Positions 118 through 6,089 of a stretch of DNA of 36,319 nt are shown here, in pieces. The DNA is from Methylococcaceae bacterium (GTDB taxonomy: Bacteria > Pseudomonadota > Gammaproteobacteria > Methylococcales > Methylomonadaceae): assembly GCA_947505105.1 (NCBI GenBank), contig CANNKG010000033.1, positions 1 through 36,319 of the forward strand, given 5' to 3'. The position numbers were made by a program, and so were the translations under genes. How positions within the stretch are numbered: the first letter of the stretch is position 1; every line of letters begins with the position of its first letter. The notes beneath the pieces are model-generated. The model made no database searches. It was not told where the DNA came from and saw nothing but the letters and a program-made list of their open reading frames with translations.

Positions 118-143
118 GATTGCACTTCGGAGTTGAATCCGCC
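118..143 (+). repeat. IS30 right terminal inverted repeat (26 bp)
   Basis: These 26 bases are the exact reverse complement of 36175-36200 and mark the outer end of the element. The host sequence begins at 144. A TTG at 133-135 inside this repeat can act as a start codon for the downstream truncated hsdS frame. Confidence 0.85.
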
Positions 144-561
144 AATCAATATAAAAAGAAAATCGATTAAAGAAGCTGATTTTATATCTTTTATTGGGAT
201 GCAGGATGTCACCGAAAGAGCCCAATTATCCAAGAGCAGCCTACTGAAATACAACGAGATCAAAAGTGGTTTTACTTATTTTGAAAATGGCGATGTCTTA
301 CTAGCCAAAATAACGCCGTGCTTTGAGAATGGAAAAGGCTGTATTACCAAAGATTTACCAACTGAAGTTGGTTTTGGTAGTACTGAATTTCATGTGTTAC
401 GTGCAAAAGACAATTCTGATTCAGGCTTTATTTATTTTTGGACTACAAGAAGGAATTTTAGATTAGCGCTTGAGTCTGAAATGGTTGGCAGCGCTGGCCA
501 CAGACGGGTTCCATTAAACGCTATTCGTGCTTACCAAATGCCCTGTCCGAAGAGAAAGAAT

Positions 562-580
562 GAACAAACCGCCATCGCCA
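562..580 (+). repeat. 19-bp in-frame direct repeat in hsdS (copy 1)
   Basis: The 19 bases starting GAACAAACCGCC are repeated exactly at 1210-1228. The copies encode the conserved EQTAIA segment at the start of each HsdS spacer helix. They lie 648 bp apart, which is a multiple of three. Confidence 0.85.
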
Positions 581-1209
581 ATGCCCTGTCCGATGTCGAT
601 GCGCTGATTAACGAGCTGGAAAAACTGATTGCCAAAAAACAGGCCATCAAAACCGCCACCCTGCAGCAACTCCTCACCGGCCGCACTCGCTTGCCACCCT
701 TCGCCCTGCGCGAAGACGGTACGCTTAAGGGCTATAAGCAGAGTGAGTTGGGGGAAATTCCGGAGGATTGGGAGGTAGCCAGACTTGGAGAAATTGGTCA
801 GTGTGTAATCGGCCTAACCTATTCGCCAAACGATGTGGCTGATTTCGGAACTTTAGTACTTCGATCATCAAATGTGCAGGGAAATCGCTTAGCCTACGAA
901 GATAACGTTTATGTACAAATGGACTTGCCGGAGCGAGTTATAGTTAAAAGAGGCGATATTCTTGTTTGTGTTAGAAATGGTAGTCGCCATCTTATTGGGA
1001 AGTGCGCGTTAATCGACGCTTCAGCTGAAGGCTCGGCTTTTGGTGCTTTCATGTCTGTCTTTCGCACCCAATCATATGGTTTTGTTTTTTATCAATTTCA
1101 GTCGGATATTATCCAAAATCAAATCAATGAAATAATGGGAGCAACCATCAACCAAATTACGAATAAGGATATGGATGGTTTCAAAATTCCTTTACCTAAA
1201 CTGGAAGAA

Positions 1210-1228
1210 GAACAAACCGCCATCGCCA
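1210..1228 (+). repeat. 19-bp in-frame direct repeat in hsdS (copy 2)
   Basis: This is an exact copy of 562-580. A crossover between the two would remove 648 bp (216 codons) and leave an in-frame half-size HsdS with one hybrid spacer. Confidence 0.85.
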
Positions 1229-1435
1229 CCCTCCTGTCCGACATGGATGCCGAAATCCAAACCCTGCAACAACGCCTAAGCAAAACCCGCCAAATCAAAC
1301 AAGGCATGATGCAGGAGTTGCTGACTGGCCGTATTCGCTTAGTGAGTTGAACAAAATAATGACAAAGCGAACTCCGTCAATCTGTATAGCTCTGCAATTA
1401 AACACGCAGGCTATGCTGCCGGGCTTTTTTGTCGT

Positions 1436-2047
1436 ATGAAATATGCAATCGGCAGCGAGCAAGATCAATTCGAGCCGGGTTCTGACAACAAGGTGCTCAA
1501 AAACATGCTTGGCATTGCATCCGAACAGGATATGCACGAAGCCGAGAACAGTTTATTGCTGAAGTTGTACGAATATCTTTACGAACCCGAGTTTGCGGTG
1601 CATTCGCTCAGCTTTGCAGACATCCAGGTCTGGCATCGTAAATGGTTGGGAAATGTTTATCGCTGGGCAGGTACTACCCGTTCGGTGAATATGGGCAAAG
1701 GCGGCTTTGAGTTTGCGGCGGCGCAACGTATTCCAGCCTTGATGGCTAAGTTTGAATCTGAGTATTTACAGCACTATGCCGAGTTGGCAAATTGGGAGAG
1801 CGAATACTTAATCGGCAATTTGGCGCGCAGCCATGTGGAGTTTATTTTGATTCACCCCTTTCGCGAGGGCAATGGCCGCATATCTCGATTGCTGATGGAT
1901 GTAATGGCTACGCAAGCGGGCTATGGGCCGCTGGATTATTCCTTATGGGATCAGCATAAAGACTTTTACTTTAAAGCGATTCAAGCAGGGCATGCTGGGA
2001 ATTACCAGCCTATGGAGCGATTGGTCAGGGATGTGCTGGAAAACTAG
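1436..2047 (+). CDS. Fic-domain protein (putative AMP/NMP transferase)
   Basis: Fic proteins usually transfer AMP or another nucleotide moiety from a nucleotide donor to a hydroxyl group on a target protein. The 203-residue product carries an intact active-site motif, HPFREGNGRISR, at residues 140-151, with the catalytic His140 and the anion-binding GNGR loop. It also has a flap-like segment, YRWAGTTRSVNMGKGG, at about 75-90. I see no clear inhibitory helix motif ([S/T]xxxE[G/N]), so any control would have to come from a separate partner. The gene lies 85 bp after hsdS and before hsdR, a position in which Fic genes are often found in type I restriction loci. A 52-codon ORF on the other strand ends 4 bp past its stop. 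Target and biological role are unknown. Confidence 0.85.
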   Translation: MKYAIGSEQDQFEPGSDNKVLKNMLGIASEQDMHEAENSLLLKLYEYLYEPEFAVHSLSFADIQVWHRKWLGNVYRWAGTTRSVNMGKGGFEFAAAQRIPALMAKFESEYLQHYAELANWESEYLIGNLARSHVEFILIHPFREGNGRISRLLMDVMATQAGYGPLDYSLWDQHKDFYFKAIQAGHAGNYQPMERLVRDVLEN

Positions 2048-2050
2048 CGA

Positions 2051-2209
2051 TCAATCAGCCAATGCTAAATGGCGGAATTTGTTAGTGCTGGATTTGAGTT
2101 TTACTTCGATTAAATGCACTGACTCACCCGTTTCTATAGCGCTTGAGCTGGCAACGGCTCTGATAATACGGGCTTTAGTAATTTTTTTAACGGTTTTTTG
2201 CGTGGTCAT
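2051..2209 (-). CDS. Small basic hypothetical protein, 52 aa, convergent with the Fic gene
   Basis: This short frame reads on the minus strand from ATG 2207-2209 to TGA 2051-2053. It has a good ribosome binding site, AGGAGA, six bases before the ATG. The product starts MTTQKTVKKITKARIIRAVA and ends FRHLALAD. It is rich in Lys and Arg at the N-terminus and has a helix-like KARIIRAVASSSAIETGE segment. It converges on the Fic gene, with only three bases between the two stop codons, and its start faces hsdR. I do not recognise the family. A small protein paired with a Fic enzyme could be an antitoxin, but this is a guess from position. The clear ribosome site, the intact frame and its filling of an otherwise empty gap support it being a gene. 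Confidence 0.6.
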   Translation of the reverse strand: MTTQKTVKKITKARIIRAVASSSAIETGESVHLIEVKLKSSTNKFRHLALAD

Positions 2210-2283
2210 AGCAAATCTCCTAATATTTGCTATTCATTATAGCAGTTTAGAGATGCAACGACATTGGGATTATGGAGTATGAA

Positions 2284-5200
2284 ATGAGCATAGTTGGTCA
2301 ACGGGAACGTGCCACGCAAAGCCGTATCGTTGCATTCTTTCAAAACGAATTGGGCTATCGTTATCTGGGCGATTGGCAGGACCGCGACGGTAATAAGAAT
2401 ATCGAGACCGGTTTACTGACCACTTGGTTACAAAAGCGCGGCATTAATGATGCATTGATTAGCCGAGTCATTCGCCAACTGGATATTGCGGCGGCACTGG
2501 GCGAAGGGAAAAAACTGTATTACGCCAACAAAGAGGTGTATCGCTTGTTGCGCTATGGTGTAAAAGACAAGGAAGGCGCGGGCGAGCAAAATCAAACGGT
2601 GTGGTTAATCGACTGGCACAACCCGCAAGCCAACGATTTTGCGATTGCCGAGGAAGTCTCCATCAAGGGCGAACACAAAAAACGCCCCGATCTGGTCTTG
2701 TACGTCAACGGCATTGCTTTAGGCATCCTGGAACTAAAGCGTTCGTCGGTATCGGTGGCCGAAGGGATTCGCCAGAATCTGGATAATCAGAAAAAAGATT
2801 TCATCCGTAACTTCTTCACCACGATCCAACTGATCATGGCCGGTAACGATACCCAAGGTTTGCGTTACGGCGCCATTGAAACTCCGGAAAAGTATTATTT
2901 AGAATGGAAGGAGAATGTGGCTCATTCTTTTGAGCATAAACTGGACTTCCATTTAAGCCGCATCTGCAACAAACAGCGTTTCTTGCAAATCATTCATGAT
3001 TTTATGGTGTTTGATGCAGGCGTCAAGAAAACCTGCCGCCATAACCAGTTTTTTGGTATCGAAGCGGCCAAGCAGCATATCGCCCGTCGTGAAGGCGGTA
3101 TTATTTGGCACACCCAGGGTTCGGGTAAAAGTTTAACTATGGTGTGGTTAGCCAAGTGGATTCGAGAACATGTTAAAGATAGTCGGGTATTAATTGTAAC
3201 CGACCGGACCGAGTTGGATGAGCAGATTGAAAAGGTCTTTTCCGGCGTCGAAGAAGCCATTTATCGCAGCAAAAGCGGCGCTGATCTAACTGCCACGTTA
3301 AACCAAGCCAATCCTTGGTTAGTTTGTTCCCTGGTACATAAATTCGGGCGGCAATCCGATAGTGAGGATAACACTGCCACCGATACTTTTATTGAGGAGC
3401 TCATAAAGTCCTTACCCAAGGATTTCAAGGTCAAAGGTGATTTGTTGGTGTTTGTCGATGAATGTCATCGCACCCAATCCGGCAAGCTGCATGAAGCAAT
3501 GAAGTCAATTCTGCCAACAGCGATGTTTATCGGTTTTACCGGTACGCCGCTGATGAAAAAGGACAAGAAAAAATCCGTGGAGATATTTGGCCCCTATATC
3601 CATACCTACAAATTCGATGAAGCGGTGGCCGATGGCGTGGTGCTGGATTTGCGCTACGAAGCGCGAGACATCGATCAACACATCACTTCGCAAAAGAAAG
3701 TAGATGAGTGGTTTGAGGCCAAGACCCGTGGCTTATCCAACATCGCTAAAACCCAGCTCAAGCAAAAATGGGGCACCATGCAAAAGGTGTTATCCAGCAA
3801 ATCGCGCTTGCAGCAGATCGTTAACGATATTCTGCTCGATATGGACACCAAGCCTCGACTGATGGACGGCTACGGTAATGCGATGTTGGTGTGTGCGAGC
3901 GTTTATCAGGCCTGCAAGGCGTATGAAATGTTTAGCCAGTCGGATTTGGCCGGCAAGGTGGCGATTGTGACAAGTTTCCAGCCCACCGCCACCAGTATTA
4001 AGGGCGAGGAAAGCGGCGAAGGTCTGACCGAGAAGTTATTCAAATACGACATTTATCGCAAGATGCTGGCCGATTATTTTGAGCAGCCGGAAGATGAAGC
4101 AGCCAGTCGGGTTGAGGAATTTGAAAAAGCCGTTAAAAAACGCTTTATCGATGAGCCGGGGCAAATGCGTTTGCTAATCGTGGTAGATAAATTGCTGACC
4201 GGCTTTGATGCCCCTTCCGCGACGTATTTGTACATCGACAAGCAAATGGCGGATCACAGTTTGTTCCAGGCCATTTGTCGGGTTAATCGCTTGGATGGTG
4301 ACGATAAAGAATACGGCTATATCGTTGACTACAAGGATTTGTTTCGTTCCTTGGACAAAGCTATTAGCGATTATACCCAAGGTGCGTTTGAAAACTTTGA
4401 CAAAGAAGATGTTGCAGGACTTGTGAAAGACCGTCTAGAACAGGCGCGGCTGGATTTGGAAGATAGCTTAGAAGTGGTGCGAGCCTTGTGTGAGCCGGTT
4501 AAAGCACCGCGTCTTACCCAAGACTATATTCATTACTTTTGTGGCGAGTCTGGCGTTAATGAGGATGAACTCGGCGAAAAGGAACCGTTACGCCTAACAC
4601 TCTATCAGAACGTTGCCAAACTAATACGGGCTTTTGCCAATATCGCGAATGAAATGCCTGAGGCAGGATTTTCTGTAGCAGATTCAGAAAAAATTAGAAT
4701 AGAAGTTGCCCATTATGAACAAGTGCGTGACGAGGTGAAACTGGCCAGTGGCGATTTACTGGAGATGAAACGCTTTGAGCCGGCCATGCGCCATCTGTTG
4801 GATATGTATATTAGAGCGGACAGTAGCGAACAGTTGATGGATTTTGAAGAGCTTGGACTCATCGAACTGATTGTTGAAAAAGGTCTTGATGCGATTGAAG
4901 CGCTACCTGAGGGGATTCGTAACAATCAAGAAGCGATGGCGGAAACCATTGAAAATAATGTGCGCCGAACCATCGTCGATGAAAATCCGGTCAACCCTAA
5001 ATATTACGAACAGATGTCGATGTTGCTGGATGAGTTGATCGAATTACGTCGGCAAAAGGCCATTGAATACCAGGCGTATCTGGAGCGTATTCGCGAGCTA
5101 TCCCGCAAGGTCATTCGTCCCGAGCAAGTCGGCTCAAGCTATCCGTATTCGATGGATACTCAAGCCAAACGGGCGTTCTATGATAACTTTGGCAAAGATG

Positions 5201-5376
5201 AGGTGTTAGCCACCAAAATCGATAGCGCTATCCGTTATACCAAGAAAGCCGATTGGGTTGGCGACCGCTTTAAAGAACGAGAAATCGCCAATGCTTTACG
5301 AGAAGAAACAGCAGGCTATGATGTGGATATTCAAACGGTGATGGAATTGGCTAAAGCGCAGAAGGATTATCACTAA
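2284..5376 (+). CDS. hsdR: Type I restriction enzyme HsdR, endonuclease/ATP-dependent translocase subunit
   Basis: HsdR is the motor and nuclease subunit of a type I restriction complex (R2M2S). It translocates DNA with ATP and cleaves away from the recognition site. The 1030-residue product has a PD-(D/E)xK nuclease domain near residues 135-152 (RPDLVLYVNG, then ELK), a Walker A motif HTQGSGKS at about 276-283, a DECH box at about 392-395 and a helicase lobe 2 with LLTGFDAP and QAICRVNRLDG. The length is normal for the family. I chose ATG 2284 because GGAG lies six bases upstream; ATG 2272 in the same frame has no clear ribosome site. The gene follows hsdS and fic and overlaps the next gene by one base. 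It looks intact even though hsdS is broken. Confidence 0.93.
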   Translation: MSIVGQRERATQSRIVAFFQNELGYRYLGDWQDRDGNKNIETGLLTTWLQKRGINDALISRVIRQLDIAAALGEGKKLYYANKEVYRLLRYGVKDKEGAGEQNQTVWLIDWHNPQANDFAIAEEVSIKGEHKKRPDLVLYVNGIALGILELKRSSVSVAEGIRQNLDNQKKDFIRNFFTTIQLIMAGNDTQGLRYGAIETPEKYYLEWKENVAHSFEHKLDFHLSRICNKQRFLQIIHDFMVFDAGVKKTCRHNQFFGIEAAKQHIARREGGIIWHTQGSGKSLTMVWLAKWIREHVKDSRVLIVTDRTELDEQIEKVFSGVEEAIYRSKSGADLTATLNQANPWLVCSLVHKFGRQSDSEDNTATDTFIEELIKSLPKDFKVKGDLLVFVDECHRTQSGKLHEAMKSILPTAMFIGFTGTPLMKKDKKKSVEIFGPYIHTYKFDEAVADGVVLDLRYEARDIDQHITSQKKVDEWFEAKTRGLSNIAKTQLKQKWGTMQKVLSSKSRLQQIVNDILLDMDTKPRLMDGYGNAMLVCASVYQACKAYEMFSQSDLAGKVAIVTSFQPTATSIKGEESGEGLTEKLFKYDIYRKMLADYFEQPEDEAASRVEEFEKAVKKRFIDEPGQMRLLIVVDKLLTGFDAPSATYLYIDKQMADHSLFQAICRVNRLDGDDKEYGYIVDYKDLFRSLDKAISDYTQGAFENFDKEDVAGLVKDRLEQARLDLEDSLEVVRALCEPVKAPRLTQDYIHYFCGESGVNEDELGEKEPLRLTLYQNVAKLIRAFANIANEMPEAGFSVADSEKIRIEVAHYEQVRDEVKLASGDLLEMKRFEPAMRHLLDMYIRADSSEQLMDFEELGLIELIVEKGLDAIEALPEGIRNNQEAMAETIENNVRRTIVDENPVNPKYYEQMSMLLDELIELRRQKAIEYQAYLERIRELSRKVIRPEQVGSSYPYSMDTQAKRAFYDNFGKDEVLATKIDSAIRYTKKADWVGDRFKEREIANALREETAGYDVDIQTVMELAKAQKDYH

Positions 5377-6089
5377 TGCCTCAAGTGCAAATTGGTTCGT
5401 TGTCACTGCAACTGAATCGCAAAGCCATTAAAAACCTACATATCAGTGTCTTGCCGCCCGATGGTCGTATTCGCGTGTCGGCTCCCGAACACATGACCGA
5501 TACCGCGATTCGCATGGCGGTGGTCAGCCGCATCCCGTGGATTAAACAGCAGCAACGTGACTTTGCAGCCCAACCTAGACAATCTAATCGGGCTTTGGTC
5601 AGCGGTGAATGCCACTACTTATGGGGTAAACGTTATCGATTAAACGTGATGGAACAACATGGTCGGCATGAGGTAAAAGTCTCAGGGGGCAAAATTCATC
5701 TGTTTGTGAACCCTGGTACTTCGGTTGAAAATAGAGCGTTGGTACTCAACGAATTTTATCGAACTCAGCTTAAAACCGATATTAAAAAGCTTATCAATCA
5801 ATGGCAAAAACACATTGACGTTGAAATTGTTGATTGGAACGTTAAGAAGATGAAAACCAAATGGGGTAGCTGTAATATCGAGGCTAAACGCATCTGGTTG
5901 AATCTTGAATTGGCGAAAAAACCACCTGAATGCCTAGAATATATTTTAGTTCATGAACTTGTCCATTTACTAGAACGTCATCACAATGAGCAGTTTAGAG
6001 CGTACATGGACAAATTCATACCAAATTGGCGCGAACGACGAGATTTACTGAAAAGTATGCCGCTTGCTTTTGAAACTTGGTCTTACTAG
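5376..6089 (+). CDS. YgjP-like (DUF45/M48-type) zinc metallopeptidase
   Basis: The 237-residue product belongs to the YgjP/WLM group of putative metal-dependent hydrolases. The zinc-site motif HELVH is at residues 193-197, with a probable third ligand at His203 (HELVHLLERHHNEQF). The segment MKTKWGSCN at about 159-167 is also typical of the family. There is no signal peptide, so it should act in the cytoplasm. Its ATG overlaps the hsdR stop by one base (TAATG), which implies translational coupling. Genes of this family often sit next to type I hsdR. The substrate is unknown; one plausible idea is proteolytic control of HsdR, but the sequence does not show that. Confidence 0.88.
   Translation: MPQVQIGSLSLQLNRKAIKNLHISVLPPDGRIRVSAPEHMTDTAIRMAVVSRIPWIKQQQRDFAAQPRQSNRALVSGECHYLWGKRYRLNVMEQHGRHEVKVSGGKIHLFVNPGTSVENRALVLNEFYRTQLKTDIKKLINQWQKHIDVEIVDWNVKKMKTKWGSCNIEAKRIWLNLELAKKPPECLEYILVHELVHLLERHHNEQFRAYMDKFIPNWRERRDLLKSMPLAFETWSY

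Follow-up and report, generated by a model that had tools for sequence, protein, structure and literature searches.

The window analysed in this study is a 36,319-nucleotide stretch of a Methylococcaceae bacterium (assembly GCA_947505105.1, contig CANNKG010000033.1, positions 1 to 36,319 of the forward strand), in which the following features were assigned; FicY and AntY are the Yersinia proteins with which the pair is compared at the end.

133-1350 (+): hsdS, specificity subunit, the N-terminal part of which is absent from the window
1436-2047 (+): putative FicY-like Fic toxin of the class I type, 203 aa long, with the catalytic motif HPFREGNGRISR at residues 140-151
2051-2209 (-): predicted AntY-like antitoxin (52 aa), with the inhibitory-type motif S22-S-A-I-E26-T27-G28
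2236-2244 (-): putative extended -10 element TGCTATAAT in the promoter of the antitoxin gene, with TATAAT at 2236-2241
2272-5376 (+): hsdR, restriction subunit (HSDR_N, E 2.9e-41)
5376-6089 (+): YgjP-like (M48/SprT-like) metallopeptidase (E 2.3e-60)

The Fic gene was located between hsdS and hsdR, 85 nt downstream of the former, and the small ORF, with an ATG start and AGGAGA upstream, faced it from the hsdR side. This was the unlisted convergent minus-strand frame of 52 aa pointed out in the preliminary description, and its place and ribosome site were confirmed; on the other hand, the 3' ends described there as overlapping did not overlap in the window, 3 nt being found between the two stop codons. 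The contig begins at window position 1, and the profile alignment of hsdS started at position 75 of 443. A frame at approximately positions 1-108 presumably resembles the C-terminus of an IS30-type transposase, a reading that obtained no support from NCBIfam. Elsewhere in the same genome, four more Fic-domain matches (contigs C186, C106, C274, and C28) and two HsdM_N matches (C219 and C129) were detected, and only one AntY-like ORF in the genome had a good score.

The Fic protein matched the Pfam Fic family with an E value of 6.4e-17. Its active site, HPFREGNGRISR, was complete and fitted the consensus of class I Fic, HPFx[D/E]GNGRxxR, and a pattern scan of all 203 residues revealed no [S/T]xxxE[G/N] inhibitory motif; the intact catalytic motif and the lack of a visible internal inhibitory helix, both noticed previously, were thus borne out. 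The nearest PADLOC model was PDLC04839 (PDC-S04), which matched residues 2-202 (E 5.7e-88). When the predicted structure (pLDDT 72) was compared with PDB chains, the six best re-aligned chains were class I Fic-antitoxin complexes (Z 13.1-12.0, level with the rows that follow), while Foldseek placed human FICD first and VbhT second. By alignment, the position corresponding to S40/T40 of Fic-1/EcFicT was leucine in the window Fic.

Homologues of the small ORF were found by tblastn in 13 other genomes among 369 gammaproteobacterial genomes (14 including that of the window), with 39-57% identity and the common core R-x-V-A-S-S-[S/T]-A-I-E-T-G. When the same 369 genomes were searched with Fic, 17 Fic loci were obtained at E ≤1e-15 (window included), and a convergent small ORF was present at 15/15 of those with ≥37% identity: eleven by the first profile, three, more distant, with the canonical [S/T]xxxEG, and one by the second profile. 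No convergent small ORF was seen at the two remotest of the 17 loci, with 35% (L079/L133) and 30% (L080/L134) identity, the latter of which had a YhfG-like ORF upstream of Fic (YhfG E 0.011, short of the cut-off). Among seven named contigs found with Fic, five carried an intact Fic, all with the small ORF, and the other two carried a truncated Fic with an intact small ORF and a Fic fragment only. Among the best 30 of 174 Fic-matching plasmid records, 13 from Enterobacterales (H2-H14) also matched an enterobacterial small protein, and the small ORF was confirmed beside Fic at the locus in H1, H15, and H17 (H16 was outside the small-ORF count). A plasmid search with an enterobacterial small protein yielded 22 records, and searches with the window protein and two other members yielded no match. 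Viral contigs gave no match for Fic; with the small protein they gave 17 loci, ten with an intact convergent Fic, five with Fic remnants, one cut by the contig end, and one without Fic. In phage records, neither Fic nor an enterobacterial small protein found a match. Every intact close Fic met in the loci examined was accompanied by the small ORF.

Intact pairs were compared in a set of 37 (29 after the removal of Fics with >90% identity), which excludes L083 and L092 as redundant. Since this set was assembled from loci already known to hold Fic, the Fic-first figures given above are the fair test of co-occurrence. The small gene is conserved and convergent with close Fics, its stop codon lying between 53 nt overlapping and 14 nt apart from that of Fic in 37/37 pairs, and a glutamate and an arginine are invariant across the two proteins: E26 was found in all 37 small proteins, as the only invariant position among residues 14-39, and H140 and R151 were kept in all 37 Fics. 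S22 was found in 36/37. The canonical [S/T]xxxE[G/N] occurred in only three of the 37 small proteins (the window has SSAIET), while ET[G/N/R] occurred in 32, the residue after the glutamate being usually T and not G/N. Position 41 of Fic was L in 37/37. The leucine at the S40/T40 equivalent and the T after the glutamate appear to be differences from a simple copy of the canonical lock. In the model of the small protein (pLDDT 81), a helix at residues 12-27 ends at the motif and is followed by a turn and a second helix (31-46); therefore, the motif is predicted to lie at the end of the first helix, which is also its place in EcFicA. The trees of Fic and the small protein co-varied (Mantel r 0.75, with 0/10,000 permutations as high), as linkage alone would also make them do.

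These results suggested that the two genes constitute a toxin-antitoxin module of type II, akin to FicY-AntY, in which the 52-aa protein shuts a class I Fic AMP-transferase, and we regard this interpretation as highly likely; judging from the sequences, the 52-aa protein is very probably the antidote to the neighboring Fic toxin. The candidate pair of the preliminary description is thus well supported by co-occurrence, the motif, selection and the promoter (see below), and the FicY-AntY precedent.

Searches that started from the small protein gave a more mixed outcome. Three such searches, restricted to strong scores, covered 29 other genomes (13 + 6 + 10); matches with E >1e-9 (3e-4 to 0.009) were left out of one search and those of G874 and G756 out of another, all being weak or in unrelated frames. 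An intact convergent Fic was found in 13 genomes, a Fic remnant in three, a zeta-like gene in two, a DUF4411 gene in one, and none of these in ten. The expectation that homologues keep to the neighborhood of fic was consequently upheld in 16/29 genomes, with Fic or a remnant, and not in the other 13; since these 13 had neither, the small-protein family is not always bound to Fic. At eleven loci (L087, L090, L091, L094, L097, L104, L120, L121, L144, L153, and L154), Fic was broken and the small ORF next to it intact; of the Citrobacter Fic at L153, only residues 93-203 are left, in two pieces. At L023, only a Fic fragment (residues 38-117) was found and the small ORF was not matched, and at L140 both genes were broken. 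Broken Fics thus occurred with an intact small ORF, and no intact close Fic stood alone among the loci examined, an asymmetry that toxin-antitoxin logic predicts.

Several loci of this family differ in the gene facing the small ORF. In the hsdS-hsdR slot of L103, the place of Fic is taken by a gene for a zeta-like kinase (Zeta_toxin, E 2e-8), 2.2 kb before the convergent AntY-like ORF at 5191, in which the key glutamate is alanine; a zeta-like gene, assigned by eye, also replaces Fic in the same slot of L119, with a convergent AntY-like ORF. The AntY-like ORF is convergent with a DUF4411 (PIN-type) gene in L122 (E 5.3e-44) and, by eye, in L139. Two tandem AntY-like ORFs (7579 and 7964, oriented) lie beside one intact Fic in L099, the outer copy being without the glutamate. 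Members with an N-terminal NPYLKD stretch (L104-L107, L116, and L123-L127) are mostly free of Fic and sit in arrays with HEPN-MNT, epsilon-zeta, HipBA, hsdM, or CD-NTase-like genes (by eye).

Orphan members in such toxin-antitoxin or defence arrays, together with the copies facing a zeta-like gene (L103 and L119) in the hsdS-hsdR slot and a DUF4411 gene (L122), are what would be expected if the small protein were a true protein but a general partner or leftover of toxin-defence loci that became fixed beside Fic and does not inhibit it. This explanation appears quite unlikely, because the small ORF was present at all 15 close Fics, E26 was found in each of the 37 paired copies, and AntY inhibits FicY in vitro in the published account (PMC7479194). 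Furthermore, the three copies without the glutamate (L103 and the second copies in L099 and L106) all lacked a directly convergent intact Fic: by eye, the glutamate was lost in 3/25 copies without and 0/35 with a convergent intact Fic, and Fisher's test on 3/24 versus 0/37 gave p 0.056. It is also conceivable, if doubtful, that AntY-like proteins serve as interchangeable antitoxins or as guards of their locus, the small convergent gene being retained while the toxin opposite it changes among Fic, a kinase of the zeta-like type, and a PIN-type DUF4411 protein; a single antitoxin family would in that case act on unrelated toxins, also within the hsdS-hsdR slot.

The surroundings of the pair were variable. 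hsdR was found ≤6 kb from 8/37 intact pairs, hsdS and hsdR together near 5/37, and YgjP ≤6 kb from 4/37, all of which are lower bounds because many loci have short flanks. Other pairs lie behind an integrase, for example in islands of E. coli and Citrobacter that also carry AlpA and YfjI genes. In the E. coli islands (L150, 5103-5872), the pair stands between a tyrosine integrase, which precedes it, and genes of the AlpA, YfjI, and Gp2 types, in a satellite-like arrangement; ≥80% of the E. coli island query was present in 19/5,426 E. coli genomes. Since hsdR was near only eight of the pairs, Fic and the small protein appear to be an independent unit that sometimes lies inside a restriction locus.

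The preliminary description had instead joined Fic, the small protein, HsdR, and YgjP into one four-part defence system. One further locus, L098, shares the window order of hsdS, Fic, small ORF, hsdR, and YgjP, and the published sections on the RptR-RMS-DarTG-M48 island describe the hsdS-hsdR gap as a place where toxin-antitoxin cargo (DarTG2) is embedded and the island, which ends in an M48 peptidase after hsdR, as functional in protection against phages (PMC12255303). Nevertheless, the four genes did not hold together as a fixed unit: besides the low counts of hsdR and YgjP, pairs also occur behind integrases in the E. coli and Citrobacter islands, and the hsdS-hsdR slot holds other cargo as well, which makes a single four-part system highly improbable. 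The Fic-small protein cargo may act in phage defence; one PDC-S04 Fic-type candidate tested in another (native) host reportedly gave no measurable defence.

The small ORF was conserved as a protein-coding frame, with dN/dS of 0.03-0.42 in 28 of the 30 pairs compared, those in which the ratio was defined; these pairs were equal-length genes with >60% identity, mostly related enterobacterial genes, and the synonymous distance between the window ORF and its nearest relative was near saturation. An exact TATAAT ≤60 nt upstream of the small ORF was found in 14/29 non-redundant pairs (500 shuffles gave 1.6 on average and 5 at most), and TG-N ahead of a -10 match of at least five of six bases also in 14/29 (0.9 on average and 4 at most in the shuffles). 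A sigma-70 consensus scan in which a -35 match was required did not report the TGCTATAAT promoter at 2236-2244. The conserved -10 element predicts a promoter of its own for the antitoxin gene, and a convergent transcript is likely on that account.

Such a transcript, driven toward fic by a conserved promoter, might enter the 3' end of fic and lower its expression as antisense RNA, the peptide being secondary. We assign very little probability to this explanation, since the low dN/dS and the one invariant glutamate in an otherwise variable protein indicate selection on the peptide; an antisense effect additional to that of the peptide is possible. The window protein found no match in Pfam, NCBIfam, or PADLOC; 19 members of the family had no match in NCBIfam and none to YhfG or VbhA in Pfam. 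Six Pfam families were each hit by one of the 19 members (best E 0.0077) and were taken as chance, as was the best PDB profile hit of the small protein (E 0.57), and Foldseek found no significant fold for its model (best E 2.6). A spurious frame, open by chance between two genes, would likewise be short and belong to no Pfam or NCBIfam family, but this reading is refuted by the homologues, the selection, the promoter, and the separate annotation of the small protein, under the name "hypothetical protein", in records from Citrobacter, Marinomonas, and E. coli, and has almost no probability left. On these sequence criteria, the 52-aa ORF is a real gene.

Returning to the toxin-antitoxin module, we infer how the two proteins bind, how Fic is inhibited, what it targets, what sets it free, and what part it might have in defence. 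The 52-aa protein, encoded by a gene of its own, would hold the active site of Fic closed; its first helix carries the SxxxE motif, and E26 would pair with R151, the second arginine of the Fic motif, as in VbhA, EcFicA, AntF, and AntY. Fic would be translated from the hsd transcript, while a strong promoter on the opposite strand would drive the antitoxin gene and so maintain the supply of antitoxin. A drop in the antitoxin, through loss of the locus or shut-off by phage or stress, would release Fic, which would AMPylate a subunit of a type II topoisomerase (ParE, should Fic behave like FicY) and arrest growth. The module would be cargo in the hsdS-hsdR gap, where it may help to stabilise the locus or serve as a back-up to restriction.

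If this is correct, an unannotated 52-aa ORF becomes a predicted Fic antitoxin, and the convergent FicY-AntY arrangement, which has one prior description and matched no Pfam or NCBIfam model, is widespread in Gammaproteobacteria. The single-gene listing of PDC-S04-type Fic would overlook the antitoxin, and defence tests in which Fic alone is cloned may therefore mislead. Fic-AntY would also be an added type of cargo for the hsdS-hsdR gap, itself a known kind of slot.

Among known systems, VbhT-VbhA, EcFicT-EcFicA (YhfG), and Fic-1-AntF resemble the window pair in having a separate small antitoxin with an S...E motif and a helix-turn-helix layout, the last predicted here. In the published sections on EcFicT-EcFicA and Fic-1-AntF, the serine and glutamate of the motif bind the second Fic-motif arginine, and E28 of AntF is required for inhibition of Fic-1 (PMC5033356, PMC13327609). 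In these canonical class I modules as described, the antitoxin is upstream in one operon and its motif ends in E-G, whereas the window gene is downstream and convergent. No sequence relation with YhfG was detected (hhalign probability 0.07% against a two-sequence YhfG profile), and the YhfG profile found no match over 114 genomes. PDC-S04 in PADLOC is a single-gene Fic candidate, while the window Fic has a convergent small gene outside that model.

As judged from the motif and layout, and not from full-length alignment, the window pair is of the already published FicY-AntY kind, described from Yersinia pseudotuberculosis YPIII (Lu et al. 2020, PMC7479194; the only paper on FicY among the matches listed in our literature search). 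In the sections of that paper drawn on here, FicY is a class I Fic that arrests E. coli when expressed, and AntY, encoded by the downstream convergent ORF (the orientation is given as "divergently" in one section and as convergent in another and in the discussion), has the motif S22TAIET27 and inhibits AMPylation of ParE by FicY in a dose-dependent manner; the authors classed the two as a type II module with independent promoters. The window pair shares with it the class I Fic, the small downstream convergent gene with adjacent stop codons, and an own (predicted) promoter. The motifs S22-T-A-I-E26-T27 of AntY and S22-S-A-I-E26-T27 of the window protein have equal residue numbers, and the catalytic histidine is residue 141 in FicY and 140 in the window Fic; the pair was assigned to the FicY-AntY kind because this motif numbering and the gene layout match. 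ParE is the target shown for FicY, whereas a similar target of the window Fic is only predicted by analogy, and the same sections do not report FicY-AntY inside a restriction locus, in which the window pair lies. In this last respect the window is closer to the RptR-RMS-DarTG-M48 island of E. coli E2348/69, as described in part in PMC12255303, where a toxin-antitoxin pair likewise separates hsdS from hsdR and an M48-type metallopeptidase comes after; the cargo is DarTG2 in that island and Fic-AntY in the window, which starts inside its locus.
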